Source of the DNA: Flavobacterium sp. YJ01
GTDB taxonomy: Bacteria; Bacteroidota; Bacteroidia; Flavobacteriales; Flavobacteriaceae
DNA length: 64,000 bases
NCBI RefSeq assembly: GCF_029320955.1
Contig: NZ_CP119757.1
Span: 310,001 to 374,000 of the forward strand
Reading direction: 5' to 3'
Positions 7,083 through 60,775 of this stretch are shown here, one piece after another; positions within the stretch are counted from its first letter, which is position 1; each line of letters starts with the position of its first letter. The notes beneath the pieces are model-generated. The model was not told the DNA's origin and searched no databases. It saw only the letters and a list, made by a program, of their open reading frames with translations. Both the position numbers and the translations under genes were made by a program.

Positions 7083-7598
7083 CTAATCTTTTGCAAACTT
7101 AATAATGAGATGCGACACCTCTAAAACCGAGCGCGCAGGTCTATTTTCTTCTGGCACAACCAAACGAAACGGTCCTACTCCATTTTCTAATGGTTTTCCG
7201 TCTTTCATATCAGCTAAAATGATAACTCTGTTTGTAAACGCTGCATCTAACTCTGCTAACGAAAAAACAACTTCATAGCCATCGCTTCCTCTCACGAGCA
7301 TATATTTTGTCAAGTTTTCTCCTTTAAGTTCTTTTCCCAAAGTTACTCCAGCCTGTTTCAATATTTCAATAATTGGAACTCCTGAATATTCTTGCAGTTT
7401 TCCTTCCCTATTTTTCATACTAGCTTGTACATGCGGAATCTTAGCAAAATCTGAAGCGCTAATAAAAAGTGGTTTTAGAACTTCTCCTTCTACTTTTAAA
7501 ATTGCTTCTTTAGAAGAATTTTGTGCTACTAAATTGTTGTGAAAACTTGAAAAAAATAATGTTGTGATTAAAATAAAGGATAAAAAGTGTTTTTTCAT
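7083..7598 (-). CDS. exported molybdopterin-binding (sulfite oxidase fold) domain protein without Cys ligand
   Basis: A 171-residue protein with a Sec signal peptide (cleavage about LVAQ-NSS) and then only the oxidoreductase molybdopterin-binding domain (PF00174): LKVEGEVLKPLFISASDF, EYSGVPIIEILKQAGV, MLVRGSDGYEVVFSLAEL, VGPFRLVVPEENRPARSV. In true sulfite oxidases and nitrate reductases a Cys in this domain binds molybdenum. There is no Cys anywhere in this protein, so it is more likely a pterin or molybdate binding protein than a redox enzyme. It is the last gene of an operon with a di-haem peroxidase and a TonB receptor, next to modABC. That context supports a periplasmic role in molybdenum handling. 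Confidence 0.8.
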   Translation of the reverse strand: MKKHFLSFILITTLFFSSFHNNLVAQNSSKEAILKVEGEVLKPLFISASDFAKIPHVQASMKNREGKLQEYSGVPIIEILKQAGVTLGKELKGENLTKYMLVRGSDGYEVVFSLAELDAAFTNRVIILADMKDGKPLENGVGPFRLVVPEENRPARSVLEVSHLIIKFAKD

Positions 7599-7609
7599 TT
7601 TCGTTATTT

Positions 7610-8716
7610 TTAATTGTTGATTGAATTCTTCAAATGCGGATCAGAAAATTTTGGATTACTAATAAATGTCGAATCCGTTAGCATTTTAAGAAAACTTATA
7701 ATATTTGATTTTTCGTCAGTTGTCAATCCTAGTTTTTTTCCATTTAAATCGTTAGAACTATTCCTTAAAGATACACTTAAAGTTTTACTGGCAATAATAT
7801 GTTCATTGTAATGATCTAATACTTCTTCTAAAGTTTTAAATCTTCCGTCGTGCATATATGGCGCAGTGAGTCCTATATTACGAAGCGTTGCAACTCGAAA
7901 TCTTCCTTTGTCATTTGCTGCTCCAGTAAATTCCTCACGACCAATGTCTTTTGGTTCTTCATCCAGACCATTGTTATGAAATAATTCCATATACATTTTG
8001 GGTGTTCCGTGACATTGTGCACAGTTTGCACCTCTAATATTCTTTTCTGGAATTGGCGAATTCATAAACAATTCCATGCCTTTTAATTCTTGTTCAGAAG
8101 GCTTATATTGATTTCTTAAATATTTATCATAACGAGAATCGGCAGATATTAAAGTGCGTTCAAATTGCGCAATTGCTTTAGTTATCTTATCTGAAGTTAT
8201 TTCTGCAGAACCAAATGCTTCTTTAAAAAGAATCGGATATTCTTTTGTTTTCTGAAGTTCTTTAACCGCTTTTTCTACATAATTTCCCATTTCGTGAGGA
8301 TCGTTAAGCGGAAACTTTGCTTGTTCTTCTAAACCTTTTGCTCTTCCGTCCCAGAAAAAATTTCGAACCCAAAGAAGATTCGCTAATGACATAGAACTGC
8401 GTTTTGTTGGCCTATTATCAATGCCTGAACTAAATGCTTTTCCGTCTGTAAAAGCAAGTTTTTGCTGATGACAGCTTGCGCAAGAAATTGTTTTGCTCGA
8501 AGATAACTTTGTTTCATAAAACAACATTCTTCCTAAATAAACACCTTGTTTAGTCGTTGGATTATCTTCTGGAATACTAATTCTATTTCCGAAATAATCT
8601 GGATATTCTAATTTATAAGGATCTACATATAGAGGTTCTATGTCAATGGCTGCCATGAAAATTCCGGCTGCCACCAACACAAATAATAAAATGATTTTTT
8701 TATAATGAGATTCCAT
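7610..8716 (-). CDS. di-haem cytochrome c peroxidase
   Basis: A 368-residue protein with an N-terminal hydrophobic anchor (residues 8-25) and two c-type haem sites, CASCH at 79-83 and CAQCH at 232-236, as in bacterial CcpA/MauG enzymes. The distal Met ligand of the high-potential haem is present in TAPYMHDGRF (Met288), so this looks like a canonical peroxidase reducing hydrogen peroxide in the periplasm. The ATG at 8716 is preferred to a TTG four codons upstream. It lies 11 bases before the molybdopterin-fold gene and 38 after the TonB receptor. Why a peroxidase belongs to a molybdenum locus is not obvious. Confidence 0.9.
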   Translation of the reverse strand: MESHYKKIILLFVLVAAGIFMAAIDIEPLYVDPYKLEYPDYFGNRISIPEDNPTTKQGVYLGRMLFYETKLSSSKTISCASCHQQKLAFTDGKAFSSGIDNRPTKRSSMSLANLLWVRNFFWDGRAKGLEEQAKFPLNDPHEMGNYVEKAVKELQKTKEYPILFKEAFGSAEITSDKITKAIAQFERTLISADSRYDKYLRNQYKPSEQELKGMELFMNSPIPEKNIRGANCAQCHGTPKMYMELFHNNGLDEEPKDIGREEFTGAANDKGRFRVATLRNIGLTAPYMHDGRFKTLEEVLDHYNEHIIASKTLSVSLRNSSNDLNGKKLGLTTDEKSNIISFLKMLTDSTFISNPKFSDPHLKNSINN

Positions 8717-8754
8717 ATTCACAATCAACTCTTTATTTCAAAACTATTTCTTTT

Positions 8755-10755
8755 TTATTGATTAAAGAAACGCAACGTTACAAAGAAATTTCTTCCTTCT
8801 TCTGGAAATCCTTCAACCAAACTATAATTTCTATCGAATATATTGCTTATTCCGGCATCAAGACTGAAATTTTTCAATATTTTTCCCGAAGCATAAAAAT
8901 TTAAAAGCGTATAATCTGGGACTCGTGTACCGTAACTTGTACTAAATCGAGCCGAATTAAATTCTGCGTTCGCGATTAAATGTAAAACTTTAAAAGGTTC
9001 ATATTCTATAGTTCCCATAACTTTTGTATTCGGAACATCTGTAAAATGAATCGTTGGATTCGTAATATTTTTTCTTTCTATATAAGTATAATTGACATTA
9101 AAAGATAAATTTTTTAAAATCGAATAATTAATCTGTGCTTCTACTCCGCGATATTCTGCTTCACCAAAATTCTGCATTTGCGATTTTCCAGGCTGCACAT
9201 TGCTTACACTCAAAATGGCATCGGTAATAGAACTATAAAATAATGCTGTTTGAAAAGTGATTTTTTCTAAGAAAGTCGCACTATAGTTAACTTCATAATT
9301 TAATGCTTCTTCTGGTTTTAAAACTGGATTCGGAATAGCGGTTCCCATTCTATAAGAATAACGATCTTTTATGGTTGCAAATCTTGTTTTCTGCGAAACT
9401 GTTGCCCCAAGTTTATTAGCTTCGTTCAACTGATAAAAAAGTCCGATCTGCAAATTGTAAGCATCGCTCGCAGCGGCCGCTGGATAATCTGAAATTACTT
9501 TGGTTGTACTGTTGTAATCTTGAGCCTGAATATTCTTTCTAATATTATAACTAGCGCCCGGAATTACAGTAAATTTATTTGAAATCTTAAATACATCTTC
9601 AATTCCAAATAAAATGGTATTGTCAATAAAATGGCGCACTGGTTCTCCTAAATTATGTTCTCTGTGAACATCTTCTTTAAAATGCACAGCAGCTTTAAAT
9701 TCATTTTTTGGTATAATTTGCGTATTGTATTCTACATTTCCTCCATAAGTATAATCGTCGTAAAGACTCTGAAAAGCATATCCTTTTGTCATCGTCGAAT
9801 ATGTTTTATCATCATAACTATTCAACGTGTTTTTGAATTTATCATAGTAAATTCTGGTCTTCAAACTATTCTGATCGTCGAGATTTGAATTCGAAATAAA
9901 ATAATAGCTTTCTTTGTTCCAAACTGGCCATTGCCAAAAACGCGGATTTGCTAAAAGTGAATTTTTGGTATCGCTTCCTGCATAAACAGGATTTCCTTTT
10001 TCTCCTTGCTGATTGATATAACCCAATGCATATTCGCTTTTTTTATTCGGAGTCCATCCTATTTTGAAAGTTATCTTCTGATCTTTTCGGTAGGAATTAT
10101 CTCTCTGTCCGCCATCTTCATTTTTCATCGGAACAAAATCAGAAGACATTCTGGTCGAATTTCTATCTAAATACGAATAACCTCCTTGCAAATAAAACTT
10201 TCCGAGATTAGAACCAATATTGATGTTTCCGCGATAACCATTATCGTTAATTGCACCCAAAGCGCCGTCATATTCTAACTTTTTTAAAGGTTTTCTAGAA
10301 ATAAGATTAATGGCTCCTCCTAAAGAATTTGGACCGTAAAGAACAGACGAAAATCCTTTTGAGACATCTACAGCCGCCAAATCGAAAGTTGTAAATCTAG
10401 CTAAATCAACATAACCATCATAAGGAACGTAAACTGGAATTCCATCCATATAAACTGGCACTTGCCTCAAATCAAAACCTCGTACAGAAACCATCGATTC
10501 GTTTCTTGGTCCTGACGCTGTTAAAGTTACGCCAGGAAGCAGATTTAATGCTTTTGAAACCTCCACTTTGTTTTGAGATTCCATTTTTTTTGATGTAATT
10601 CTATTCAAAGTATCTCTCTTTTGATTCTGAGTTATTACTACTTCGCCTAGAATAAAAATATTTGATGTTTTTAGAGAATCTGTTTCGCTTTTCCTGTTTT
10701 GCTGTGAAAATCCTATCAGCGGAAGAAGTATAAATACTGCAAATTTTAGTTTCAT
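8755..10755 (-). CDS. TonB-dependent outer membrane receptor of the molybdenum locus
   Basis: A 666-residue receptor with signal peptide (MKLKFAVFILLPLIGFSQQ), plug domain (EVVITQNQKRDTL, then LLPGVTLTASGPRNESMVSV and RGFD, then VLYGPNSLGGAINLISRKP) and a barrel ending in FVTLRFFNQ with terminal aromatic residues. There is no carboxypeptidase-regulatory extension. It resembles small-ligand receptors such as those for siderophores and metal complexes. It heads an operon with a peroxidase and a molybdopterin-fold protein and abuts modABC. I infer uptake of molybdate, tungstate or a chelate or cofactor of them; sequence alone does not prove the ligand. Confidence 0.85.
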   Translation of the reverse strand: MKLKFAVFILLPLIGFSQQNRKSETDSLKTSNIFILGEVVITQNQKRDTLNRITSKKMESQNKVEVSKALNLLPGVTLTASGPRNESMVSVRGFDLRQVPVYMDGIPVYVPYDGYVDLARFTTFDLAAVDVSKGFSSVLYGPNSLGGAINLISRKPLKKLEYDGALGAINDNGYRGNINIGSNLGKFYLQGGYSYLDRNSTRMSSDFVPMKNEDGGQRDNSYRKDQKITFKIGWTPNKKSEYALGYINQQGEKGNPVYAGSDTKNSLLANPRFWQWPVWNKESYYFISNSNLDDQNSLKTRIYYDKFKNTLNSYDDKTYSTMTKGYAFQSLYDDYTYGGNVEYNTQIIPKNEFKAAVHFKEDVHREHNLGEPVRHFIDNTILFGIEDVFKISNKFTVIPGASYNIRKNIQAQDYNSTTKVISDYPAAAASDAYNLQIGLFYQLNEANKLGATVSQKTRFATIKDRYSYRMGTAIPNPVLKPEEALNYEVNYSATFLEKITFQTALFYSSITDAILSVSNVQPGKSQMQNFGEAEYRGVEAQINYSILKNLSFNVNYTYIERKNITNPTIHFTDVPNTKVMGTIEYEPFKVLHLIANAEFNSARFSTSYGTRVPDYTLLNFYASGKILKNFSLDAGISNIFDRNYSLVEGFPEEGRNFFVTLRFFNQ

Positions 10756-10770
10756 GGTTAATGGTATTTT

Positions 10771-10862
10771 CAGTATGTTTTAAAATGAATACTGACGGTT
10801 AAAAAAAATCTATTTTGGTTAATTACGTAGTTATTAGTTTGTAAAAATAAGTATTTATACTT
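10771..10862 (-). promoter_or_regulatory. inverted repeats upstream of the TonB receptor
   Basis: Two short inverted repeats lie between the receptor ATG and the end of modC: CAGTAT/ATACTG at 10771-10794 (near the start, probably in the 5' UTR) and AAGTAT-TT-ATACTT at 10849-10862. They could be an mRNA hairpin and an operator. No TAnnTTTG promoter was clear. Confidence 0.3.
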
Positions 10863-10895
10863 AAATAAAATAAGTAATTTGATTTTTTTCCATTT

Positions 10896-11771
10896 TTATG
10901 TCAGAATCTGAATTATAGGATTAAATGCTTTAGAAGCTACTAACACTTTTTGTCCGATTTTATATTCTTGTGCTTCGTCTTCGGTCGCAATAACTTTTAT
11001 AATATTATTTCCAGAAGAAACTTGGACAACATATATAATATCACTTTTAGTAATACTTATTATTTCTCCTGTAATTTGAAATTTACTGCTGATTCTTTTT
11101 TCTGAAAAGACATTTTGAGGCGTTCCTTCTTTTATAATTTTACCATGATCAAGAACAATTACTTTATCAGAAAGTTTGAAAATTTCTGAAATGGAATGAC
11201 TTACCATTAAAGTTGTTAGATTATATTTTTGATGAATTTGTAAAATATAATCCTGAAGTTTAAATCTCATTTCATCATCCAAAGCCGATAGCGGTTCATC
11301 GAGTAAGAGAATTTCGGGTTTACGAACAATTGCTCTGGCCAAAGCAACACGCTGTTTTTGTCCGCCAGATAAATTTTGAGGCTTACTATTTTGAAGTGAT
11401 TGCAATTCCATTAATTCAATTAGTTCATAAACAATTTCTTTTGAATCGTTTTTAGATAAAGCAAATTCCAAATTTTCTTTTACAGTCAAATTTGGAAATA
11501 AGGCAAAATCTTGAAATACAAACCCAACGGAACGTTTTTGAATAGGAAGATGAAACTTTTTATTAGAATCGTCCCAAATTGATTCTTCTACTTTTACACT
11601 AACTTTTTCTGCTTTGGTCAGAGCTGATAAAATGCGAAGTATTGTTGTTTTTCCAGCTCCAGAATTTCCATAAATAGAAACAAATTGTCCTTTTTCAATA
11701 GTCAAAGAAATATCCAATGGCAATTTTCCATTTGCTGTCTCGAGCATTTTATAGGCATCAATTTGTATCAT
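10896..11771 (-). CDS. modC: molybdate ABC transporter ATP-binding protein
   Basis: A 291-residue ABC ATPase with Walker A GNSGAGKT, Q-loop VFQDFALFPNLTV, signature LSGGQKQR, Walker B ILLLDEPLSALD and H-loop VSHS. The last 65 residues form a TOBE/Mop domain (ITGEIISITKSDIIYVVQV), as in ModC proteins, where it binds oxyanion or contributes to inhibition. It should energise import through ModB. The ATG overlaps the modB stop by one base (TAATG), so translation is coupled. It is the last gene of modA-Mop-modB-modC. Confidence 0.92.
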   Translation of the reverse strand: MIQIDAYKMLETANGKLPLDISLTIEKGQFVSIYGNSGAGKTTILRILSALTKAEKVSVKVEESIWDDSNKKFHLPIQKRSVGFVFQDFALFPNLTVKENLEFALSKNDSKEIVYELIELMELQSLQNSKPQNLSGGQKQRVALARAIVRKPEILLLDEPLSALDDEMRFKLQDYILQIHQKYNLTTLMVSHSISEIFKLSDKVIVLDHGKIIKEGTPQNVFSEKRISSKFQITGEIISITKSDIIYVVQVSSGNNIIKVIATEDEAQEYKIGQKVLVASKAFNPIIQILT

Positions 11772-12445
11772 TAATAAAGAATAGTTTTTCGGGATTTATT
11801 ATGAATTAAATGAACAGCCAAAAGAATAGCAAAAGAAAACGCGAACAATATTCCTGCATAAATATTGGCATTATCGTAATTCATCGATTCAACTTCTTCA
11901 TAAATTGCAATCGAAACCACTTTTGTTTCCTCTGGAATGCTTCCTCCAACCATTAAAACTACTCCAAATTCTCCTAAAGTGTGGGCAAATGTCATAATTA
12001 TACCCGTAAATAATGAGGCACGAATATTAGGAAGCAATATTTTTGTTATGGTCGTTAATCGAGATTTTCCTAAAGTAAAAGAGGCTTCTTGCAACGCGGG
12101 CGGCAGATTTTTTAATCCTGATAAAATCGGATTTACCATAAAAGGTAAACTGTACAGCACCGAAGCCAGAATTAATCCTTCAAAAGTAAAAACCAATCTT
12201 ACATCAAAATAATCAGATAAAAACTTTCCAAAAGCATTTTCTGGACTAAAAGCTATCAATAAGTAAAAACCTAAAACAGATGGCGGCAAAACTAAAGGAA
12301 GACTTATTAGAGCTTCAATCACAGCTTTTAATTTAAACCTACTGTAGCACAACCAATAACAAAGCGGAATCGAAACCACTAACAGAATAATTGTTGTGAT
12401 TAAAGCCAATTTTGCTGTGAGCCATAAAGGATCTAAATTAATCAT
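11771..12445 (-). CDS. modB: molybdate ABC transporter permease
   Basis: A 224-residue inner membrane protein with five or six predicted helices. It has the permease EAA loop LQEASFTLGKSRLTTITKIL (residues about 119-138), which docks on ModC, and the ModB-typical SLPLVLPPSVLGFYLL and THTLGEFGVVLMVGG-like stretch (here AHTLGEFGVVLMVGGSIP). It forms the molybdate channel. It overlaps the Mop gene by 8 bases and modC by one base. Confidence 0.93.
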   Translation of the reverse strand: MINLDPLWLTAKLALITTIILLVVSIPLCYWLCYSRFKLKAVIEALISLPLVLPPSVLGFYLLIAFSPENAFGKFLSDYFDVRLVFTFEGLILASVLYSLPFMVNPILSGLKNLPPALQEASFTLGKSRLTTITKILLPNIRASLFTGIIMTFAHTLGEFGVVLMVGGSIPEETKVVSIAIYEEVESMNYDNANIYAGILFAFSFAILLAVHLIHNKSRKTILY

Positions 12446-51728: not shown

Positions 51729-52748
51729 TTACTTTCCAACAAACTGTTTATCACTCAACGTTTTCATAAAGGCAATTAGATTGTTTTTTTCCAACTCAGA
51801 CAACGGAATTCTCTTACCATTATTCTTAAAAATCGGATCTAAATTATCTGCATCTAAAACTCCCTTATCAAAATAATCCAGAACTGATTTTAAATCAGAA
51901 AACTGTCCAAAACTACCATAAGGAGCTGTATATTCAATATTTCTCAAACTTGGAACACGAAAACTCATAAAATCTGAAGCAATTCCCGTAACGCGTCCGC
52001 GTCCAGCTTCGTTTGTATCTTTATTTAAAGGAAAGCCGATATTTCTAAAACTCTGATCCGTAAATAATTCTCCCGAATGACAACTGGCACATTTCTGCTG
52101 AAAGGTTTTATAGCCTTCTAATTCGCTTTCTGTAAAAGTTTCGCCTTCATTTCGTTTTACTTTATCATATTTACTGTTGGAAGAAATTAAAGTATATTCA
52201 AATTGCGCAATACTTTTATAGATTCTTTCTGGTGTAATTTCTCCATCGCCATAAGCTTTTCTAAATAAAACTTTATAATCCGAATCGTCCTTAATTTTAC
52301 CGATAACTTCTAAAATGGAAGAATCCATTTCTTCATGCGTTATAATCGGAACTAACGGTTGGGTTTCCAATTGCAGTTTGCTTCCATCCCAATTGTAAAA
52401 TTTTAGAAATAATAAATTCTGAAGCGATGGCGCATTACGAAGTCCTACTCTGCCCTGAATTCCAATTGCTTGCGGCTTATCATCAGAAAAAGCATTTGCC
52501 TGAATATGACAGCTTGCGCATGAAATCGTATTATCTGCACTGAATCTTTTATCAGAAAAAAGTTTTTCACCTAATTCTACACCGTATTGTGTTGGTTTAT
52601 TCAAACTCGCAAAACTATTTATTTCTGGAAAACCCGATGGAATATTTAAAGCAATTTCAGGATTATCAATAGCAATCATGTCAGCATCGTCATTATTACA
52701 AGACGTTAATAATGAAAGCATTGATATAAAAACAAATATTTTTTTCAT
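51729..52748 (-). CDS. MbnH-like di-haem enzyme (cytochrome c peroxidase/MauG family)
   Basis: A 339-residue lipoprotein (lipobox LLTSC, Cys17) with two c-type haem sites, CASCH at 77-81 and CASCH at 220-224. In the canonical relative at 7610-8716 the distal Met is in TAPYMHDGRF; here the segment reads TAPYGSFGQF (residues 274-283), so the Met ligand is replaced by Gly. That departure is expected for MauG/MbnH enzymes, which use bis-Fe(IV) chemistry to modify a partner protein. The gene follows an MbnP-like gene. MbnH converts a Trp of MbnP to kynurenine for copper binding, so I propose that role here. Confidence 0.85.
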   Translation of the reverse strand: MKKIFVFISMLSLLTSCNNDDADMIAIDNPEIALNIPSGFPEINSFASLNKPTQYGVELGEKLFSDKRFSADNTISCASCHIQANAFSDDKPQAIGIQGRVGLRNAPSLQNLLFLKFYNWDGSKLQLETQPLVPIITHEEMDSSILEVIGKIKDDSDYKVLFRKAYGDGEITPERIYKSIAQFEYTLISSNSKYDKVKRNEGETFTESELEGYKTFQQKCASCHSGELFTDQSFRNIGFPLNKDTNEAGRGRVTGIASDFMSFRVPSLRNIEYTAPYGSFGQFSDLKSVLDYFDKGVLDADNLDPIFKNNGKRIPLSELEKNNLIAFMKTLSDKQFVGK

Positions 52749-52766
52749 TTTAAATGAATTTTAAAA

Positions 52767-52796
52767 AGCCGTCTGATTTTATTCTCAGACGGCTCT
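52767..52796 (-). terminator. intercistronic terminator between mbnP-like and mbnH-like genes
   Basis: AGCCGTCTGA pairs perfectly with TCAGACGGCT across an 8-base loop, with TTTTT after it on the minus strand. It lies 9 bases after the MbnP stop and 19 before the MbnH ATG, so it should limit enzyme relative to substrate protein. Confidence 0.85.
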
Positions 52797-52804
52797 GAAA
52801 TATT

Positions 52805-53671
52805 TTAGTTTTCTACACTACTAACAGAAAACATTCCGCTAATATCGCTTGAACCATTTCCTCCTAAATTGTCCACAAATTTTACCATTTGTGCCGCAGT
52901 ATGAACGTTCGGAGTTGCATTATCATTCATTCCTGTTCCTGTAGACAAAGTAATCGTGTTGATTTTTCCGCTCAATAATTTATCAAAATCAGCTTTAATT
53001 TTAATTTTTGGCGCTTTGCTTCCCACAATCGCATTTGTAGTTAAGTTCAACGTAATATCTCTATAGGCATTTACACCTTGTGTGTAGTTTGGAGCAGTTC
53101 CTTCAACCGTACTTCCGGTATGAATTGACATCGTTTTATTATCCGTATCATAAAATCCTTCTACTTTTGTAAAACGGTAGCCACTTCCCCATTCCCACAT
53201 CATTTGCGTGTCGTTTGCCCCTGCAGCTGCATAGAAATTTGGAAAACGTACTTGATCTAGAGTGTTTTGTTCTGGTTTGATTCCCAACCCAAATTTAATC
53301 TGCTTGTAAGTGGCAGACGGAATATTGCTTAAAACGTAGCTCAAAGAAGATGTTTTAGATTGGTCAATTACAGTTGCGCCTTTGTCTAAATCATTTACGT
53401 TGTAAGGAACTTCAGTTCCATTATCTTTCACCAAACGAATATTACTGATCACGTATTTCAATTCTGAAAAATGATGAATTTGCCCAGCCGCCGAAGTATT
53501 TGCAGTTGCAGAAGTTGATGTTGCATTTCCAAGAACAATCGTGTTACTTTTAAATGTATTCGTAAATTCTAGCGTTACATTGTTCGCAACTGGATTATCA
53601 TCATCACTTGAACATGATACGAAAGCCAATGCGGCAACTGATAATAATAGGTATTTTTTAAAATTTTGCAT
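52805..53671 (-). CDS. MbnP-like copper-binding lipoprotein
   Basis: A 288-residue lipoprotein (lipobox AFVSC, Cys20). The beta-rich domain shows the MbnP pattern: VTLEFTNTF, GQIHHFSELKYVISNIRLVK, SLSYVLSNIPSATYKQIKFG, LGIKPEQNT and the hallmark MMWEWGSGYRFTKVEGFY, which holds the Trp residues likely to be oxidised by MbnH. In the studied homologues (MbnP, CorA) such modification creates a copper site. The gene precedes the MbnH-like gene, separated by a terminator, and follows a TonB receptor gene with OprC-type copper ligands. Confidence 0.85.
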   Translation of the reverse strand: MQNFKKYLLLSVAALAFVSCSSDDDNPVANNVTLEFTNTFKSNTIVLGNATSTSATANTSAAGQIHHFSELKYVISNIRLVKDNGTEVPYNVNDLDKGATVIDQSKTSSLSYVLSNIPSATYKQIKFGLGIKPEQNTLDQVRFPNFYAAAGANDTQMMWEWGSGYRFTKVEGFYDTDNKTMSIHTGSTVEGTAPNYTQGVNAYRDITLNLTTNAIVGSKAPKIKIKADFDKLLSGKINTITLSTGTGMNDNATPNVHTAAQMVKFVDNLGGNGSSDISGMFSVSSVEN

Positions 53672-53730
53672 TTTGTGATATTTAAATTTTTGTATTTCTA
53701 TTTTTTAAAATTGATGTATAACATTTTTTC

Positions 53731-53871
53731 AACACATAGAAACATAGATTTTATTTAAAATAATTAATAAATAAGATTTTAAAAAGAAACTAGTTTCTAA
53801 CACATAGCTATGTTTGTTAATGCAAGTGAAACGCCTTTTTCCAAGCATTCAAACCTATGTTTCTATGTGTT
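53731..53871. repeat. palindromic intergenic repeat, copy 1 (141 bp)
   Basis: It is bounded by a perfect 17-bp inverted repeat: AACACATAGAAACATAG (53731-53747) and CTATGTTTCTATGTGTT (53855-53871). Inside are AGAAACTAGTTTCT (palindrome) and CACATAGCTATG. A related copy, 190 bp with an extra 56 bases, lies at 62495-62684. No ORF. Confidence 0.85.
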
Positions 53872-53880
53872 AAATATTTT

Positions 53881-54258
53881 TCAACGTTTAGCAAAAAATA
53901 AAATAGGCGGCGGAACAAAAATTTCTAAATAAGGTTCAAAATGACCAAATTCTTTATAAATCAATACTTTATTATTTATCATTTTTAGAATGTGAACTGG
54001 AAAATCAAAATTCTGATTCTGAAGGATATCTATTTTTTTGAAAATACTATTTAACTCCAAATCGTTCTTTTCAGACTTTTCTAATTCTTTCTTTAAATGA
54101 CATTTTCCATGGCATTGTAATTCTGGTTTAGCTTTATTTTCGCAGAATTCTTTTTCTATATCTTGCTGATTCAGTTTAAAGTGCACAACAATAAGTGCCT
54201 GTTGGAACGAAACCAACAAGAACAAAATCGTCATTGTGAAACTAAAAACTTTTTTCAT
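53881..54258 (-). CDS. exported CxGxC small protein of the copper locus
   Basis: A 125-residue protein with signal peptide MKKVFSFTMTILFLLVSFQ. The mature part begins VVHFKLNQQDIEKEFCENKA and holds the cluster LQCHGKCHLKKELEKSEKND: Cys-His-Gly-Lys-Cys-His, a likely metal or redox site. It ends PPPILFFAKR. It starts 1 base after the TonB receptor ends, so it is co-transcribed. Proteins with this CxGxC-LxK pattern sit beside copper genes in many Bacteroidota; the function is not known. A homologue with the same motif lies at 57429. Confidence 0.75.
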   Translation of the reverse strand: MKKVFSFTMTILFLLVSFQQALIVVHFKLNQQDIEKEFCENKAKPELQCHGKCHLKKELEKSEKNDLELNSIFKKIDILQNQNFDFPVHILKMINNKVLIYKEFGHFEPYLEIFVPPPILFFAKR

Positions 54259-54259
54259 T

Positions 54260-56239
54260 TTATAAAGTGAATTTTAAAGAAGTAAAAATGTTACGTCCCA
54301 TTCTCGAAATATTTCCCCAATCGGCATAAGTGCTGTAATATTCATTTAATAAATTTTCTGCACCAACTTGAACCGTCGTTTTTACTTTATTGATTTTAAA
54401 AGAATAATCAGCAGAAAGATTCCAAATCGTATACGCCGAAGTTAAATCCTCCCCATATTCTGGACTGTAATTAATTTGTTCAAAATCGCCATTTACAGAA
54501 GTTTGGATTCCTAAATTTTTATGCATAAAATGTAGCGAAGTCTGGTAACTCAACGGACGTATAAAAGGTAAATTTCCACCTAAATTATCCATTCCGCGCG
54601 CATACATTAAGGTTCCTTTCCAATGCAAATGTTCTAAAATATCGTAACCTGCATTCACAGAAAAATTTAAAAGTGTCGCATAATCTAATGAAGTATAACC
54701 TTTTACACCAACCGATTGATAATTCATCGGACTTCCCATACTCAAAATTCTTCCAATAATATAATTCTGGATATAGAAATAATTTACTTTTCCTTGAAGA
54801 CTGAATTTCTCGTTTTTAAAACCCGCGCTTGCATTTCCTTCGTATGAAATTTCATTTTTCAAATTTGGATCTCCGATATAATCGTAACGGTCAAAACTAT
54901 TGTAAATGTAATATCCGTAACCTTCAGAAACAGAAGGCGCTCTGTGACCGTAACCCGCTCCAACAGAAAAATCAAACTGGTCAATATTTAATTGATAACC
55001 CGCATGAAGATTTGGTAAAAATCTCGTTTTTTCCTGTGGCGCTCCTGGATGAAAAATCCAGTTGAATTCTACATATTTTGAGTAATTGTAATTCACGCCC
55101 AAAGAACCGCCCAAATTCACCTGACTTTTATCTGAAATGTCCCAAGAATTATTCATCGAAAGTCCCGCGTAACGTGTTGTTACCCAAGGCCAGCTGTAGG
55201 CAAACATCGTTCTTTTGCTTCGATCTTGCGGATACATTCGCATTTCTGCAATAGACAAATTATCGTACGCATTCAATTGAATTTCAGCCGCATAATTATC
55301 TTTTTTCAAATTTGCTTTAGACACCAAACCATACGTAGTGCTCCAACCTGGCATATCCATATGAACCAGATTTTCAGGACGCGTCGTATCATCCATATAA
55401 TGCTCAATGGCATTAAAATAGATTTTCGTATCAATCACTTTTACCAAACCATTTTCAAATAATTGTTTGTAAGCAGCCGAAGTTATCAGCGCTCTAGAAA
55501 GTGATAAATCCATTGGAAGCGCCGGAAAACCAACATCTTTAGCCATATCAAAAATCGCATCGACTCTTACGGCAGATAATTCGCTTGTTTTATACGCCAA
55601 ACCAATCGAAGTATTGAACTTTTTATATTGTGAATGTTTTACTTCGTTATCATTTCCGTCATAATAATTGTCTGCTTTTCGGTACGAAATACTTCCGTCG
55701 GCTACAAATTTATTGCTTGAATAGGAGACATTTCCAAGATTGAAAAACTGTTTGTTGTTGAATTCGAATCCGCTTTGATAGGCTCCGTTCCATTTTCTTT
55801 GAGCGCTAAATGGTGTGCTTTTTCTTTTTAAATCAATACTTCCCGCAACAGTTGCGCCGTGAAGACTTCCTTCTTGCCCTGATTTGATATCAATTGCCGA
55901 AAGATTATTGCTTTCTACATAAGAAGTAATCGGATCCATTTTATCGGTACAAGCGCCAAAAACGTGCATTCCGTCAATTGTAACGGTCGAACGTTCTGTA
56001 CTCATATTATTTAGCAAAGGTTCCCAAGCGTAAGCTCCGCGTTTTATAAAACTTATATTATCTGAAGAAGATAAAAATTCATCAACCGAAACCGCCATTT
56101 TCATTTCTGTTTCGATCTTCTTTTTAGTGGCGTTTTTTACTGTTACTTCTTCTAAATTTTTGATGCTGTCGTGATGCGCGTGCGGATTTTGAGCGTTAAC
56201 AGACATTCCCAAAAAAAGCAGCATTATAATATATTTCAT
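54260..56239 (-). CDS. OprC/NosA-like copper TonB-dependent receptor
   Basis: A 659-residue receptor; ATG 56239 is chosen because MKYIIMLLFLGMSVNAQ is a clean signal peptide. The plug has GMHVFGACTDKMDPITSYVE with Cys97 and Met101 as CxxxM. The early barrel has NAIEHYMDDTTRPE with His280 and Met282 as HxM, 183 residues after the Cys. In OprC of Pseudomonas these four ligands (Cys143, Met147, His323, Met325) bind copper, with the same spacing to within three residues. The His-rich start NPHAHHD is also notable. It ends FTSLKFTL. It should import copper ions. It lies within a probable operon of exported metal proteins. Confidence 0.9.
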   Translation of the reverse strand: MKYIIMLLFLGMSVNAQNPHAHHDSIKNLEEVTVKNATKKKIETEMKMAVSVDEFLSSSDNISFIKRGAYAWEPLLNNMSTERSTVTIDGMHVFGACTDKMDPITSYVESNNLSAIDIKSGQEGSLHGATVAGSIDLKRKSTPFSAQRKWNGAYQSGFEFNNKQFFNLGNVSYSSNKFVADGSISYRKADNYYDGNDNEVKHSQYKKFNTSIGLAYKTSELSAVRVDAIFDMAKDVGFPALPMDLSLSRALITSAAYKQLFENGLVKVIDTKIYFNAIEHYMDDTTRPENLVHMDMPGWSTTYGLVSKANLKKDNYAAEIQLNAYDNLSIAEMRMYPQDRSKRTMFAYSWPWVTTRYAGLSMNNSWDISDKSQVNLGGSLGVNYNYSKYVEFNWIFHPGAPQEKTRFLPNLHAGYQLNIDQFDFSVGAGYGHRAPSVSEGYGYYIYNSFDRYDYIGDPNLKNEISYEGNASAGFKNEKFSLQGKVNYFYIQNYIIGRILSMGSPMNYQSVGVKGYTSLDYATLLNFSVNAGYDILEHLHWKGTLMYARGMDNLGGNLPFIRPLSYQTSLHFMHKNLGIQTSVNGDFEQINYSPEYGEDLTSAYTIWNLSADYSFKINKVKTTVQVGAENLLNEYYSTYADWGNISRMGRNIFTSLKFTL

Positions 56240-56243
56240 GTTT

Positions 56244-57167
56244 TTAGAATAAAGTATCAATATAAAGTTCACTTTTAACTCCTTCAATTCCAGGCGTAAA
56301 ATCGGTTGGAACCACAGTTCCTTTTAAAATCAATCCGTTTTGATTCATCATAATTAAATTCAGCGTCCAATTTCCCGTCATCGTATAATTGACAACACCG
56401 TGATACAAACCATCGTTTTCTTGTACCAAATCTTTATTGTTTGGCGAAGAGTGATTTCCCATAGAAGGTTCGGGCATTCTTGGATCTAATTTTAAGGTAA
56501 AACCAGTTACTTCTGAATAAGAAAATTGACTCGGATCAGGAAAAGTTCCCGCAGAAGTCGTTGGTTTATTGTATTTGTAAATGCCCGCAACCAATTTGTT
56601 TTCAGAAACCGTTGGTTTTTGAGGAGAAACCAAAGCGATAAAATACTGCTCGCCGTCATTTCCTGTAAATGCCGTCATATTCAAGTTTTTATTGCTTTGT
56701 TTTTGAACAGAAATATCTTTATTGATATCATATTTCTGATTATCAGCAGTAAAACTCATATATAGTTTCCAACTTGCTGTAGTTGTGCTTTCGCCAGTAA
56801 AAACAGAATATCCAACATAATATTTATTTGTCGCATCGTAAGCTATTTTATATTCATGCGGGCAAGAACTTTTGCTTCCGTCTGCATTCGTAATTATTGG
56901 CAAAAAAGTTACAGCAGAAGTATTTAAAATTTGATTTGTTTGTGTATTCAAAACTTTGACATGAAGCTCATTATAACCTTTATAGAATGTCCCGTTTAAA
57001 GCGTCAATAGTAATTTTGTAATTACCGCTAGTAAGTGAAACTGCTTCTTTAAATTCATAAGATTCTGGAACTTGAGAACCAGTTTCTGCTTCGTAATCTG
57101 TTTTGTCAATGGTACAAGAAGTAATTGCAAAAAGTAATGCAAATACTAGAAAATTAAAAGATTTCAT
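56244..57167 (-). CDS. YtkA-like lipoprotein of the copper locus
   Basis: A 307-residue lipoprotein (lipobox AITSC, Cys18); ATG 57167 is chosen for the signal peptide MKSFNFLVFALLFAITSC. It has two similar beta domains, the first with YKITIDALNGTFYKGYNELH, VKVLNTQTNQIL, CPHEYKIAYD and YYVGYSVFTGESTTTASWKL, the second from about residue 180. The pattern fits YtkA/FixH-like domains, found beside copper-handling proteins. It stops 4 bases before the TonB receptor start. It probably receives or binds ligand in the periplasm. Confidence 0.7.
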   Translation of the reverse strand: MKSFNFLVFALLFAITSCTIDKTDYEAETGSQVPESYEFKEAVSLTSGNYKITIDALNGTFYKGYNELHVKVLNTQTNQILNTSAVTFLPIITNADGSKSSCPHEYKIAYDATNKYYVGYSVFTGESTTTASWKLYMSFTADNQKYDINKDISVQKQSNKNLNMTAFTGNDGEQYFIALVSPQKPTVSENKLVAGIYKYNKPTTSAGTFPDPSQFSYSEVTGFTLKLDPRMPEPSMGNHSSPNNKDLVQENDGLYHGVVNYTMTGNWTLNLIMMNQNGLILKGTVVPTDFTPGIEGVKSELYIDTLF

Positions 57168-57428
57168 TTTGTAATGAATGTTTTTAAAACTGTTTAAATT
57201 GTAGCAGAATGCCATGAAGTTTCGAAAATCAAAACATGACAAATGCCGTGAACTTACAAGAATAAGATCAACAGTTTCGGCTATAAAGGAAAAATGTAAA
57301 TAAAACTAACGCCGTAAATAAACGTAGCGAATTCTTGAAGTGAAAACACATTACATTTATATTGCATATAGCATTGAATTCATTGCAATGATTTCAAATA
57401 GGATACAAATTAAACTGGAAACTCTGAT

Positions 57429-57803
57429 CTAAGCCAAACAGAGCGGTGGATGAAAAGTAAGATTAGAAGCCTTGATAGGTTTCTTTTCGAATAAAATTGA
57501 AGCATTTTCTTTTGATTCTACTAAAGAAATAACTGAAAATTTAACTTCAGGAGAATTTTGAACATATACCAATTCTAGTTTTTCTTTCAGACTATCTTGC
57601 TTTTTCTCGTTATCAGCATATTTTTTTATGCTCTTTTGAAGTTCGCATCGACCGTTACAAGAATTAAAAACTGATTTACGTTGCACACAAATAGTTTGCG
57701 CAATTTCTTTTTGATTTATTTTGAAGGAAGCATAAATGAACAAGCTGCCAAAAGATGGCGACAAGATTAAAATGGAAAGCACTATGATAAATAATCTTTT
57801 CAA
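57429..57803 (-). CDS. exported CxGxC small protein, second copy
   Basis: A 124-residue protein with an uncleaved or Sec signal (KRLFIIVLSILILSPSFGSL) and the conserved FKINQKEIAQTICVQRKSVF, then NSCNGRCELQKSIKKYADNE with CxGxC as in the 53881 protein. Only the TTG at 57803 gives a plausible start, and a TACTTTTG promoter element 24 bases upstream supports it. It is the first gene of the copper locus. It ends FHPPLCLA with a further Cys. Function unknown. Confidence 0.7.
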   Translation of the reverse strand: MKRLFIIVLSILILSPSFGSLFIYASFKINQKEIAQTICVQRKSVFNSCNGRCELQKSIKKYADNEKKQDSLKEKLELVYVQNSPEVKFSVISLVESKENASILFEKKPIKASNLTFHPPLCLA

Positions 57804-57826: not shown

Positions 57827-57834
57827 CAAAAGTA
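57827..57834 (-). promoter_or_regulatory. -7 promoter element of the copper locus
   Basis: TACTTTTG (minus strand) matches TAnnTTTG, 24 bases before the TTG start at 57803, and helps fix that start. Confidence 0.6.
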
Positions 57835-57989: not shown

Positions 57990-58024
57990 AAAAATGCTAA
58001 ACGTAATGTTTAGCATTTTTTTGT
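57990..58024. terminator. terminator of the glycoside hydrolase operon
   Basis: AAATGCTAAAC pairs with GTTTAGCATTT, with A and T runs on both sides, about 30 bases after the stop at 58053. Confidence 0.9.
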
Positions 58025-58052: not shown

Positions 58053-59174
58053 TTAATTGTATAATTGATCAAAAAGTTCTGGTGAAGCTTTTAAATATTT
58101 GTCTTTCCCAACTTCTTCATTCCATTTTTTGGTAATGAAATCGCTTAATTGCAATCTGGAATCAATTCCTTTAAAAGTTGGATTTACTTTCCATCTTGGT
58201 TTGTCTTTCCAATTAGCATTAATATAACTTATTGCTTTTACCGTTTTCGGATTATCGTTTATGGTTTTAAAAAACGGAACAAACCATTCTTCCCAAGCCA
58301 TTTTTGCTTGTTCCGGATTCGAAAGTTTCATTTCTTTTGTCAAACCTGTATTTCCTTTCGGATCATTTTTCCAATCGGTTGACGTTGGCGCTGCTTCACA
58401 AATAAAAACAGGTTTATTTTTAGCTTTCGCGAAAGCAATCATATTTTCCTGCTTGTAATTATTAAAGAATGAAAAACCGCACCAATCAACATAATTGTCG
58501 CCAGGATACCATTTTTCAAGATCTTCTAAAGTGCTTTCAAACCCTTTTGACTGCCAGACATAAGCGACATTAGTCACGCCTTGTTCGTCCAATTTATCTT
58601 TAATATGTCTAAAAGCATTGATGTAAGCCACTCTTTCGTATCTATTCCAAGGTCCGTCAAATTCAAAACCAATTCGCAGAAAAACAGGACGTTTTCCTAA
58701 ACTCTTAAAAAATTCCCCCATTTTTTTGATGTAAGAATCCAATTCGCCACTTGCAATTTTCTCTTCAGTATCAATTATCGCCAGACCAATTGCCAAAGCC
58801 GAGTTTTTAAAATCAGCATCATTTAATTGTAAAGACATATTCTCTGGCCCGTCTCCCCAATCTGCCGTTTCGTAAATTCCGTTTAAACCTGAGTATGTAA
58901 AGGAATGTCCATCAAATTCTTCTGTGACGCCTGGCATAATATCGGTATACATTGTAAATCCGCCAGGTGCGGGAAAATGGTCAAAATAACCGTTTTTATC
59001 TTTTTCCGTTCCGCCCAAAGCATCATTTTCTTGACCAATAAATAGAATTACTTCGCCATCTTTTGGCTCAAATTTGGCACGTTTAATTTCTATTAATTCC
59101 GCTATTTTCGGTGGATTCTGTTTACAGCTCAACATCAAAACAGAAAGTCCAATAATAAAATATCTTAATTTCAT
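58053..59174 (-). CDS. GH26-like glycoside hydrolase lipoprotein
   Basis: A 373-residue lipoprotein (lipobox LMLSC, Cys17); ATG 59174. The TIM-barrel shows a clan-A pattern: FLRIGFEFDGPWNRYER with acid/base Glu171, VTNVAYVWQSKG, and KPVFICEAAP with nucleophile Glu260. The combination resembles GH26 (mannanases, xylanases). Its lipid anchor places it at the cell surface or in the periplasm. It is last in the operon MFS-GH43-GH26, 17 bases after GH43. GH family is likely but the substrate is not proven. Confidence 0.75.
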   Translation of the reverse strand: MKLRYFIIGLSVLMLSCKQNPPKIAELIEIKRAKFEPKDGEVILFIGQENDALGGTEKDKNGYFDHFPAPGGFTMYTDIMPGVTEEFDGHSFTYSGLNGIYETADWGDGPENMSLQLNDADFKNSALAIGLAIIDTEEKIASGELDSYIKKMGEFFKSLGKRPVFLRIGFEFDGPWNRYERVAYINAFRHIKDKLDEQGVTNVAYVWQSKGFESTLEDLEKWYPGDNYVDWCGFSFFNNYKQENMIAFAKAKNKPVFICEAAPTSTDWKNDPKGNTGLTKEMKLSNPEQAKMAWEEWFVPFFKTINDNPKTVKAISYINANWKDKPRWKVNPTFKGIDSRLQLSDFITKKWNEEVGKDKYLKASPELFDQLYN

Positions 59175-59191
59175 AAATCTAAAATCTAAAA

Positions 59192-60775
59192 TCAACAATC
59201 TAAAATCTTATACTCAAACCAATCAAAATCGGCATGAACAGAATTCGTTGCCAAATCTTGACAACACAATCCGACCAAACATCCCGTAAAAGCTGGACGG
59301 TAACGTTCGCTTTCGTCACGAACATAATCATCTGACAAAATGCTCATATCTAGTTTTTCTCCGATTTTTTCAAAATGATTTCCATCCTTACTAAATAGAA
59401 ATTGCAATTTATCATGGTTAATGGTTGCTCTCAGAAGTATTTCTTGAATTCCCGTCACGATAATAATTTCTTTTTGTTCAATTATTTTATAATTACAACA
59501 GCTAACAATAGAAAGAATCTTTTGATTTCCACTTTTCGTTATATGCAAATAATGATAATGTCCTGTATTATAATACAAAACCAAACCAGCTAAATGCTGA
59601 AACTTAGTCGGTTCAAAACGTATCGAAGCCGTAATTTCTGCTTTAAAATGCTGTAATCTTCTCGCTACCAACGCTTGCGTATGTGTAGACGTGAGAGATT
59701 CTTTTCCTTTTAATCTTAAAAATCCTGGACGTTCTGCCAAAGAAATCCATTCTTCTGATTGTGGGATTCTTAAGGTTTGAAAATCTATCGGCAATGTATC
59801 AGCATCAAAATGCTCTTTTTCAAGACTTTCGTCAAAAAAAACTTCTTGTAAGTTTGGAGAAGGAATTTCTAAACGAGGTAAATTGGAACCTGAATTCAAA
59901 TATGGCCAATCGTTTTTCCAAACAATTTCTTCAATTGCGGTTTCTCTTCCTAAAATACATCTTCCCTGAACAGTTAGCGGTCGACTTACCAAAAATGCAA
60001 CATACCAATCTCCATTTTGAGTTTCTACAAAAGAAGCGTGTCCCGCTTTTTGCAATTCATATTCTGGCGAATTTCTCGCTGTTAAAATCGGGTTTTCTGG
60101 ATGATTTTCATAAGGTCCAGAAATGTTTCTAGAACGCATAACGGTTTCTGCATGACCATATTCTGTTCCGCCTTCGGCAAGAATTAAATAATAATAGCCG
60201 TTTCGTTTATATAAATGCGGACCTTCGGTAAAACCTAAATCAGTTCCTGACGTTAAATAGAAAATTTCTCCAACTAATTTTTGTACTTCTGTATCATATT
60301 CCTGAAGTTCGATTCCTCCAAAAAATTTTCCATTTCTGTGATCGACCAACATATTAATGTACCAAGTTTTTCCATCATTATCATGAAAAAAAGAACCGTC
60401 AAAACCCGCTGATGTCAAGTAAACTGGTTCGCTCCAATCTCCTAAAATATCATTTGTCGTTACAACATAATTTGGTGTGTCTTTCCAAACGCCGTCAAAC
60501 GATTTTACATTCGTGTAAACCAAATAAAAAACACCATTTTTATAAGACAAACAAGGCGCCCAAACTCCGCAGGAATCGGGAACTCCTTTCATATCTAATT
60601 GAGAAATTCGATTGAGCGGATGCGCAACTACTTTCCAATTTTTAAGATCTTTTGAATGATGAATCTGCACGCCTGGAAACCATTCAAATGTGGATGTTGC
60701 GATGTAATAATCATCTCCAACTCTACAAATTGAAGGATCTGGATTGAAACCTTTTAAGATTGGGTTCTGAATCAT
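59192..60775 (-). CDS. GH43 beta-xylosidase/alpha-L-arabinofuranosidase
   Basis: A 527-residue enzyme with no signal peptide, so probably cytoplasmic. The five-bladed propeller has base Asp13 in GFNPDPSICRVGDDYY, pKa Asp126 in AGFDGSFFHDNDG and acid Glu184 in GFTEGPHLYKRNG. The C-terminal 200 residues form the beta-sandwich of the XynB type (PTKFQHLAGLVLYYNTGHYH). It cleaves xylo-oligosaccharides or arabinose side chains. It starts 5 bases before the MFS gene ends in the operon order, so the two are tightly coupled. Confidence 0.92.
   Translation of the reverse strand: MIQNPILKGFNPDPSICRVGDDYYIATSTFEWFPGVQIHHSKDLKNWKVVAHPLNRISQLDMKGVPDSCGVWAPCLSYKNGVFYLVYTNVKSFDGVWKDTPNYVVTTNDILGDWSEPVYLTSAGFDGSFFHDNDGKTWYINMLVDHRNGKFFGGIELQEYDTEVQKLVGEIFYLTSGTDLGFTEGPHLYKRNGYYYLILAEGGTEYGHAETVMRSRNISGPYENHPENPILTARNSPEYELQKAGHASFVETQNGDWYVAFLVSRPLTVQGRCILGRETAIEEIVWKNDWPYLNSGSNLPRLEIPSPNLQEVFFDESLEKEHFDADTLPIDFQTLRIPQSEEWISLAERPGFLRLKGKESLTSTHTQALVARRLQHFKAEITASIRFEPTKFQHLAGLVLYYNTGHYHYLHITKSGNQKILSIVSCCNYKIIEQKEIIIVTGIQEILLRATINHDKLQFLFSKDGNHFEKIGEKLDMSILSDDYVRDESERYRPAFTGCLVGLCCQDLATNSVHADFDWFEYKILDC

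Follow-up and report, generated by a model that had tools for sequence, protein, structure and literature searches.

Small CxGxC Proteins Ending in Pro-Pro as Candidate Nascent-Chain Copper Sensors in a Probable Copper-Starvation Operon of Flavobacterium sp. YJ01

Introduction

From the literature covered here, copper uptake and copper sensing appear to be little known in Bacteroidota, a major phylum. The stretch of DNA analyzed here (the window; 64,000 nucleotides) corresponds to bases 310001-374000 of the 5.48-Mb genome of Flavobacterium sp. YJ01, a single contig. The list of open reading frames (ORFs) of the window contains six ORFs at 51729-57803, all on the (-) strand, which code in reading order for a small CxGxC protein (leader A), followed by a 261-nt gap, a YtkA-like protein, a TonB receptor, a second small CxGxC protein (leader B), followed by a 209-nt gap, an MbnP-like protein, and an MbnH-like protein. 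A preliminary description of this DNA had named these six parts and placed them on one strand, as is also found here, and had proposed a copper acquisition locus that works as a line from import at the outer membrane to a copper carrier in the periplasm or at the surface. Copper acquisition is supported by the OprC ligands of the receptor, by the MbnP fold, and by the copper genes next to most of the related leaders. For the CxGxC proteins, a role as leader-type sensors fits better than the role of carriers that such a line would imply, and the reading that we consider likely from sequence comparison is that of a copper-starvation operon with two gates, one for each half, both formed by nascent-chain copper sensors.

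Results and Discussion

Anatomy and Conservation of the CxGxC Leaders

Both leaders are small exported-type proteins encoded on the (-) strand. Leader A (57429..57803) has a TTG start, the cysteine pattern C39, C49xG51xC53, and the end FHPPLCLA-stop; leader B (53881..54258) has the same Cys motif and ends in FVPPPILFFAKR-stop. A structure model of leader A, of modest quality (predicted template modelling score, pTM, 0.46), contains a hydrophobic N-terminal helix at residues 2-29, and residues 80-124, which include Pro-Pro, are unstructured in it (predicted local distance difference test score, pLDDT, 51-58).

In order to define the family, a leader profile was built from 28 sequences and 395 genomes of the phylum were scanned. 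The CxGxC leader family was found in 151 of these sampled genomes and in 67 of 170 genera. In the window and 120 regions fetched for the purpose, a profile restricted to the N-terminal part picked out 114 leader ORFs; one 193-aa CxGxC ORF in region L032 had been excluded by eye before the first count. In a search for proteins homologous to the leader, 120 of 1196 matches were listed; the named proteins among the top matches were from Flavobacterium, and the listed sequences were kept out of all counts. CxGxC was present in all 114 leaders, and so was Pro-Pro within the last 15 residues; by comparison, Pro-Pro occurred in the last 16 residues of 39 of the 1206 other ORFs of 80-200 aa in the same regions. 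A third Cys stands upstream of CxGxC, 10 places before it in 112 leaders and 11 places in two, which gives the three-Cys pattern C-x9/10-CxGxC. An alignment of 110 of the 114 leaders showed C39, C49, G51, C53, P119, and P120 as the sole invariant positions. Counted from the last Cys, Pro-Pro stands at an offset of 63-74 residues (median 67.5, n = 114), and the tail past Pro-Pro measured 1-5 residues in 110 of the 114. The residue preceding Pro-Pro was H in 54 leaders, R in 22, P in 18, K in 7, Q in 7, and another one in 6. Since the third bases of the Pro-Pro codons vary freely (15 of the 16 combinations were seen), it is the protein, not the RNA, that is conserved.

The regions of the 114 leaders had originally been chosen by full-length profiles or by MbnP, and two freer sets were therefore checked. 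In the first one, 20 regions whose profile match ended short of the C-terminus, Pro-Pro was there in 20 of 20. For the second one, a scan using only the N-terminal profile gave matches in 88 of 159 genomes, and 50 matches were read. Of these, 30 were the loci given by the tool and 20 came from the 23 weakest matches in its listing; 5 of the places belonged to the first set as well. Pro-Pro occurred within the last 15 residues in 47 of these 50, the background being 17 of 262.

Genes Adjoining the Leaders

The genes behind the leaders were recorded by taking as neighbor the first downstream ORF of at least 150 aa, with Pfam labels that rest on one or two representatives per group. This first ORF (n = 114) was a receptor in 40 cases, MbnP in 37, YtkA in 14, SCO1 in 6, and another one in 17, so that a TonB receptor, MbnP, YtkA, or SCO1 is the next gene in 97 of the 114; 13 of the 14 YtkA neighbors were then followed by a receptor. 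Among the weakest matches of the second scan (20 of 23), the first gene coded for a MetA-type barrel in 12 cases, 9 of which had MbnP among the next two genes; three further units began with MbnP, one each with a receptor and with an AraC-like gene, and three with an unlabelled product. The YtkA-receptor-MbnP-MbnH order of the window recurs at five other loci from relatives, three of which (L054, L056, and L177) have both leaders, and two (L053 and L164) leader A only; the gene set is thus more than a chance association. Behind the third leader of the genome (217119-217481) come YtkA, an OprC-like receptor complete in its ligands, a cupredoxin, and a NorB-like gene.

The gap between leader and cargo has a median of 110 nt, versus 31 nt for the following gap; both are minimum values, gaps having been taken from the most upstream possible start. 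The consensus of the Bacteroidota -7 promoter box is TAnnTTTG. Before the leaders, matches to it reach a density of 3.6/kb (62 sites in 17.1 kb), which is 13-fold that of the gap after them (0.28/kb; 5 sites in 17.9 kb), and their density inside the leaders is 0.65/kb. In the window, a match (TACTTTTG) was read in the sequence at 57827..57834 (-), before leader A, and no TTG was found at the usual -33 distance from it. Since the box stands before the leaders and is scarce in the gap behind them, leader and cargo would most likely form one transcript.

These data also bear on the proposal that the CxGxC proteins act in trans, as ordinary copper carriers of the periplasm or as storage peptides, with Pro-Pro as a docking tail. 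The three conserved cysteines, the adjoining copper genes, and the N-terminal hydrophobic helix of the leader A model would all suit such proteins, and 25 of the 114 leaders, leader B included, have a same-strand ORF of at least 100 aa less than 60 nt upstream. However, the model of leader A shows no structure over the last 45 residues, and yet Pro-Pro is invariant beside the stop in the 110-sequence alignment; the promoter box stands ahead of the gene rather than after it, and the longer gap is the one behind the gene; and the same leader type precedes differing cargo. We therefore regard carriers or storage peptides as unlikely.

Comparison with CruR, CutF, and Other Leader Peptides

The anatomy of the leaders resembles that of CruR of Bordetella (DUF2946; cruR-bfrG/crtA-PepSY_TM), where expression at low copper depends on a Pro-Pro close to the stop, shut-off by copper requires the Cys motif, and the distance between the two is important (PMC9426467). 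Shared features are a small exported Cys protein, Pro-Pro near the stop, a kept Cys-to-Pro-Pro spacing, a long gap, and the first position in operons with TonB receptors (including the OprC type), PepSY_TM, SCO, or MbnP/MbnH (MbnPH). The same paper lists operons of copper leader ORFs with OprC-type receptors or MbnPH, mostly from Proteobacteria, and the hosts that it names for CruR are Proteobacteria and a few Planctomycetes, Firmicutes, and Deinococcus (PMC9426467). In contrast to CruR, with its CXXC, 45 intervening residues, and RAPP (PMC9426467), the leaders described here have CxGxC, about 65 residues, and mostly HPP, RPP, or PPP. PF11162 (DUF2946) had no match in the YJ01 genome at E 1, and it was absent from the 25 families listed for 110 of the 114 leaders, 30 more families with at most one member each standing outside that listing. 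Membership of the leaders in DUF2946 is not supported by these searches, which included no profile-profile comparison, nor by the motifs, since CXXC, the 45-residue spacing, and RAPP are all lacking.

CutF, another copper-sensing leader ORF of Proteobacteria, also has 45 residues between its motifs; it switches on a copper oxidase in response to copper, a sign opposite to that of CruR (PMC9973294). CutF-like proteins have been defined as having less than 150 aa, Pro-Pro within the 15 C-terminal residues, a signal peptide, and a same-strand gene behind (PMC9973294). Both window leaders have Pro-Pro as so defined and a same-strand gene within 1,000 nt, and the rule would fit the leaders in general, with the N-terminal helix of the leader A model as a putative signal peptide; the sensor spacing differs, being about 67 residues here versus about 45 in CruR and CutF. 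With about 67 residues the sensor loop would sit level with the outer mouth of SecYEG or past it. The bulk list D of that 2023 study contains 5,334 CutF-like proteins, 19% of them (40% when normalised) from Bacteroidota, and the leader family may be inside it (PMC9973294). A term search of its main text gave no MbnP, and the sections covered contain no description of a Bacteroidota family (PMC9973294).

Pro motifs also end other small exported ORFs upstream of regulated genes, namely the Bacteroidota upstream ORFs with C-terminal Pro (NSP-stop or NAP-stop) and the RAPP-type arrest peptides (PMC10987492, PMC12992588). Unlike the copper leaders, the NSP-stop and NAP-stop ORFs precede secA or secDF, and a search for RAPP or RGPP would miss the HPP of the leaders (PMC10987492, PMC12992588). 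Among the matches listed in searches of open-licence papers, we found no account of the Bacteroidota leader family, of the three-Cys plus HPP-type motif or its spacing, of a tie between such leaders and MbnPH or OprC-like receptors, or of two leaders per operon. From this comparison we lean, if only slightly, towards a phylum-wide Bacteroidota family of copper-sensing arrest peptides that would be distinct from DUF2946, carry a three-Cys site beyond SecYEG, and be stackable for sequential gating.

Proposed Mechanism of the Double Gate

What the sequences show is the anatomy, the conservation, and the neighbors of the leaders, the ligands of the receptor, and the MbnP fold; stalling, copper binding, the direction of control, and secretion are the parts of the mechanism that we infer. 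Each CxGxC protein would be made first and then exported, as its hydrophobic N-terminal helix suggests. The ribosome would pause at [H/R/K/P/Q]-Pro-Pro, mostly 2-4 codons ahead of the stop, and, judging from tunnel and channel lengths, the approximately 67 residues from Cys to Pro-Pro would place the Cys loop out of the tunnel, at the outer side of SecYEG. At low copper, a lasting pause would permit downstream expression, with leader A gating the YtkA lipoprotein and the OprC-like receptor, and leader B gating MbnP and MbnH; binding of copper(I) to the three cysteines would end the pause and switch the genes off. For this sign of control we follow CruR and the part that the cargo plays in import, the CruR sign being expected because the cargo is mostly uptake machinery. 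Bacteroidota make little use of Shine-Dalgarno pairing, and downstream control might be exerted via Rho-dependent termination or via start-site opening, both of which are possible. The receptor would import ionic copper via its CxxxM-HxM site, and MbnP and MbnH would probably be copper-binding and redox lipoproteins, giving or taking the receptor's copper. If this is true, receptor and MbnP/MbnH would be gated in succession within one operon by a control that would need no transcription factor; the leader family would serve as a marker of likely copper-uptake operons across Bacteroidota, and nascent-chain copper sensing would become directly testable in Flavobacterium.

Several observations weigh against this double gate. 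Leader starts were chosen by script, and kinship within the family alone keeps length, so that a constant spacing is partly expected. Three of the 50 N-terminal-only matches, all from one genus (L214, L215, and L216), end in PVPWG or HVPRG without Pro-Pro. For 17 of the 114 leaders the first neighbor is no clear copper gene; three of these neighbors count as AraC-like on the basis of one representative. No TAnnTTTG was found within 150 nt of 56 of the 114 leaders; considering also the 25 that lie close behind another ORF, a transcript does not begin at each of the leaders. Pro-Pro by itself does not necessarily cause stalling, and here it is mostly preceded by His, Arg, Pro, Lys, or Gln; the motifs reported as the readiest to stall are RAPP and RGPP (PMC12992588). 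Finally, 12 gaps of the genus align poorly, as judged from their alignment only, and a common RNA structure in the gaps is thus unsupported. As for the single gap behind leader A (57168..57428, (-); 261 nt), a 309-nt stretch over it gave an RNA fold stabler than 100 of 100 shuffles (z -3.2).

Other arrangements were seen among the leader units. In L214, L215, and L216, a MetA-type barrel and MbnP stand behind the leaders ending in PVPWG or HVPRG. A tandem pair of leaders precedes a single receptor in L131 (6972-7976) and L176 (7053-7976). Five of the six SCO1 units continue with a group represented by Fe/Mn superoxide dismutase, and in L051, L055, L172, and L173 a leader-headed unit of SCO1 and this group directly precedes an MbnPH unit that is headed by another leader. 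Such pairs of units would be a possible copper-sparing switch.

The OprC-Like Receptor

The TonB-dependent receptor is encoded at 54260..56239 (-), starting 4 nt past the YtkA-like gene, and leader B starts 1 nt past the receptor. The preliminary description had assigned to it CxxxM and HxM motifs (Cys97, Met101, His280, and Met282) equivalent to the OprC ligands, and this assignment holds with the residues counted from the ATG at 56239. In a phmmer search against OprC structures the best match was 6fok (E 2.8e-9), and the alignment pairs C with C and M with M in GACTDKMD/GACPNRMD, and H with H and M with M in EHYMDD/DHIMDN; the numbers 97, 101, 280, and 282 agree with a start at the ATG that is codon 17 of the ORF listed from a TTG. 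OprC structures were thus matched, but the copper-receptor model TIGR01778 gave 73.3 bits, below its cut-off of 472, and the NCBIfam haem/transferrin receptor model gave 85.9 bits, below its cut-off of 324. Because both NCBIfam scores are below cut-off, the receptor is, from its sequence, OprC-like rather than a proven OprC equivalog.

Conservation of the ligands was followed in 56 receptor ORFs found in the first three places behind leaders and grouped by single linkage, 31 of which match the window receptor directly. All four ligands C, M, H, and M are kept in 30 of the 56; the remaining ones comprise 3 with Gly for Cys, 18 of an NHN[AS]L type, 2 halves of one split ORF, and 3 otherwise different. 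A receptor for haem or a siderophore, in a locus that serves iron, might be suggested by the higher score of the haem/transferrin model over the copper-receptor model, both far below cut-off. However, the four OprC ligands align and are retained in those 30 receptors, and the neighbors of the leaders include MbnP, SCO1, and cupredoxin, which makes an iron locus very improbable.

The copper ligands of Pseudomonas OprC are CxxxM-HxM (PMC8610252); the window receptor shares them and differs in being linked to YtkA, MbnPH, and two leaders. An OprC-like receptor with the same CxxxM-HxM ligands has been reported in the flavobacterium Bizionia argentinensis (PMC11213822). The preliminary description knew of no account of such a combined locus in this phylum; this calls for caution, given the Bizionia receptor and the operons of copper leader ORFs with OprC-type receptors or MbnPH named above. 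For the combined receptor-YtkA-CxGxC-MbnPH set, no description in Bacteroidota was found among the matches listed in searches of open-licence papers. The 18 receptors of the NHN[AS]L type, which have no Cys/Met ligands, recall CrtA with PepSY_TM (PMC12914433), as does a PepSY_TM-type gene among the next genes in 12 of the 40 units starting with a receptor; CrtA is mostly found in beta- and gamma-Proteobacteria (PMC12914433).

MbnP and MbnH

The MbnP-like lipoprotein (52805..53671, (-)) was identified as such in the preliminary description, and the profile, the fold, and the motif MMWEWGSGYRFTKVEG, which is present, all agree. Its PF20243 score is 121 bits versus a cut-off of 27, and it is the single PF20243 match in the genome at E 0.001; the TIGR04052 score is 61.6 bits, below the cut-off of 140. 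The only Protein Data Bank (PDB) matches of its structure model at E <=0.001 were the six chains of MbnP 7l6g, and the MbnP profile aligns the WxW region with 7l6g; direct phmmer of MbnP against the PDB gave a chance match only, 7l6g being found by profile and model. WEW and HxG are present, and the C-terminal HxH is absent.

The MbnH/MauG-like di-haem lipoprotein (51729..52748, (-)) has two CASCH motifs, with PYGSFG and DYF replacing PYMHDG and HY. Its likeness to MbnH, also claimed before, is borne out by CCP_MauG (166.8 bits) and by the MbnH profile, whose best PDB match was MbnH 6e1c, but the protein falls short of the MbnH family proper (TIGR04039, 196 bits versus a cut-off of 363) and has Phe at the position of the haem-2 Tyr. 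Tyr is a haem ligand in MauG. The MbnH proteins of receptor-linked operons have PYGSFG in 6 of 6, with Phe (5) or Met (1) at the Tyr position, and a Tyr is present one residue before this lost ligand position. The other MbnH-like proteins have Tyr there in 55 of 56, as does 6e1c, and PY[MF]H[DN]G in 56 of 56, in a comparison that omits two further motif-less matches (the second one of L048, and L120). In our own reading of the printed alignment, the equivalent position in the peroxidase 1iqc is Met. The MbnP proteins of the same six operons all lack the near-C-terminal HxH[NA], which is present in 28 of 51 other MbnPs.

These differences affect the claim that MbnH acts here as it does in Methylosinus, oxidizing an MbnP Trp to kynurenine and forming the copper site of a surface or periplasmic carrier. 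Arguing for it are the matches of the MbnP model to 7l6g chains only, the pairing of the MbnH profile with 6e1c, and the invariance of W161 and H184 in 37 MbnPs (37 of 41 aligned). However, none of the six receptor-linked MbnH has the Tyr that aligns in 6e1c, or PY[MF]H[DN]G, and none of their MbnPs has HxH[NA], and because of these losses the kynurenine chemistry is doubtful for receptor-linked MbnPH; it is a possibility to which we give somewhat less than even weight. Either the haem ligand of this MbnH would be shifted by one residue, the preceding Tyr being a possible ligand, or the enzyme would have another activity. MbnH variants whose chemistry should differ are thereby flagged. Compared with the published MbnP/MbnH (PMC3621798; 7l6g, 6e1c), the fold, the WxW motif, and the gene pair are alike; the differences are an OprC-like rather than MbnT-like receptor and the missing MbnH Tyr and MbnP C-terminal HxH. 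In Methylosinus, isolated MbnPH pairs are found near MbnT-like TonB receptors (PMC3621798).

Among the 37 MbnP-first units, 26 have a MetA-type barrel (PF13557, one representative) at most 7 kb behind MbnP, for instance L172:7341-8300, and the four receptor-linked units of the 37 fall among those without it. Acidic residues past the lipobox Cys are the rule for export to the cell surface, and the sequences CSSDDD and CNNDDA found here hint at such an export. A second MbnH-like di-haem protein (7610-8728; CCP_MauG, 199.5 bits), with PYMHDG and HY intact, is encoded in the region 7083-12445, where it has a molybdopterin-oxidoreductase-like protein on one side and a TonB receptor on the other, next to an ABC ATPase and permease; the one PF20243 match of the genome is not at that locus.

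Other Features of the Locus

A terminator-like hairpin (57990..58020, (-)) stands past the glycosidase-like gene that precedes the operon (58053-59198), and would set the two apart; it is a consensus match only, six such having been found in the region versus 3.7 expected. The gap after leader B (53672..53880, (-); 209 nt) contains an element of about 140 bp (53731-53871) with perfect 17-nt terminal inverted repeats (arms 53731-53747 and 53855-53871), which belongs to a repeat family resembling miniature inverted-repeat transposable elements. A regulatory role of this inverted repeat was rejected because the genome as a whole contains 101 such arms, scattered and with one mismatch at most, the backward control giving 0. 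The YtkA-like lipoprotein (56244..57167, (-)) was taken from the ATG at 57167, the listed TTG ORF starting at 57242. Its score of 25.0 bits is narrowly below the cut-off of 25.9, and a YtkA paralogue elsewhere in the genome scores above it, with 41.7 bits.

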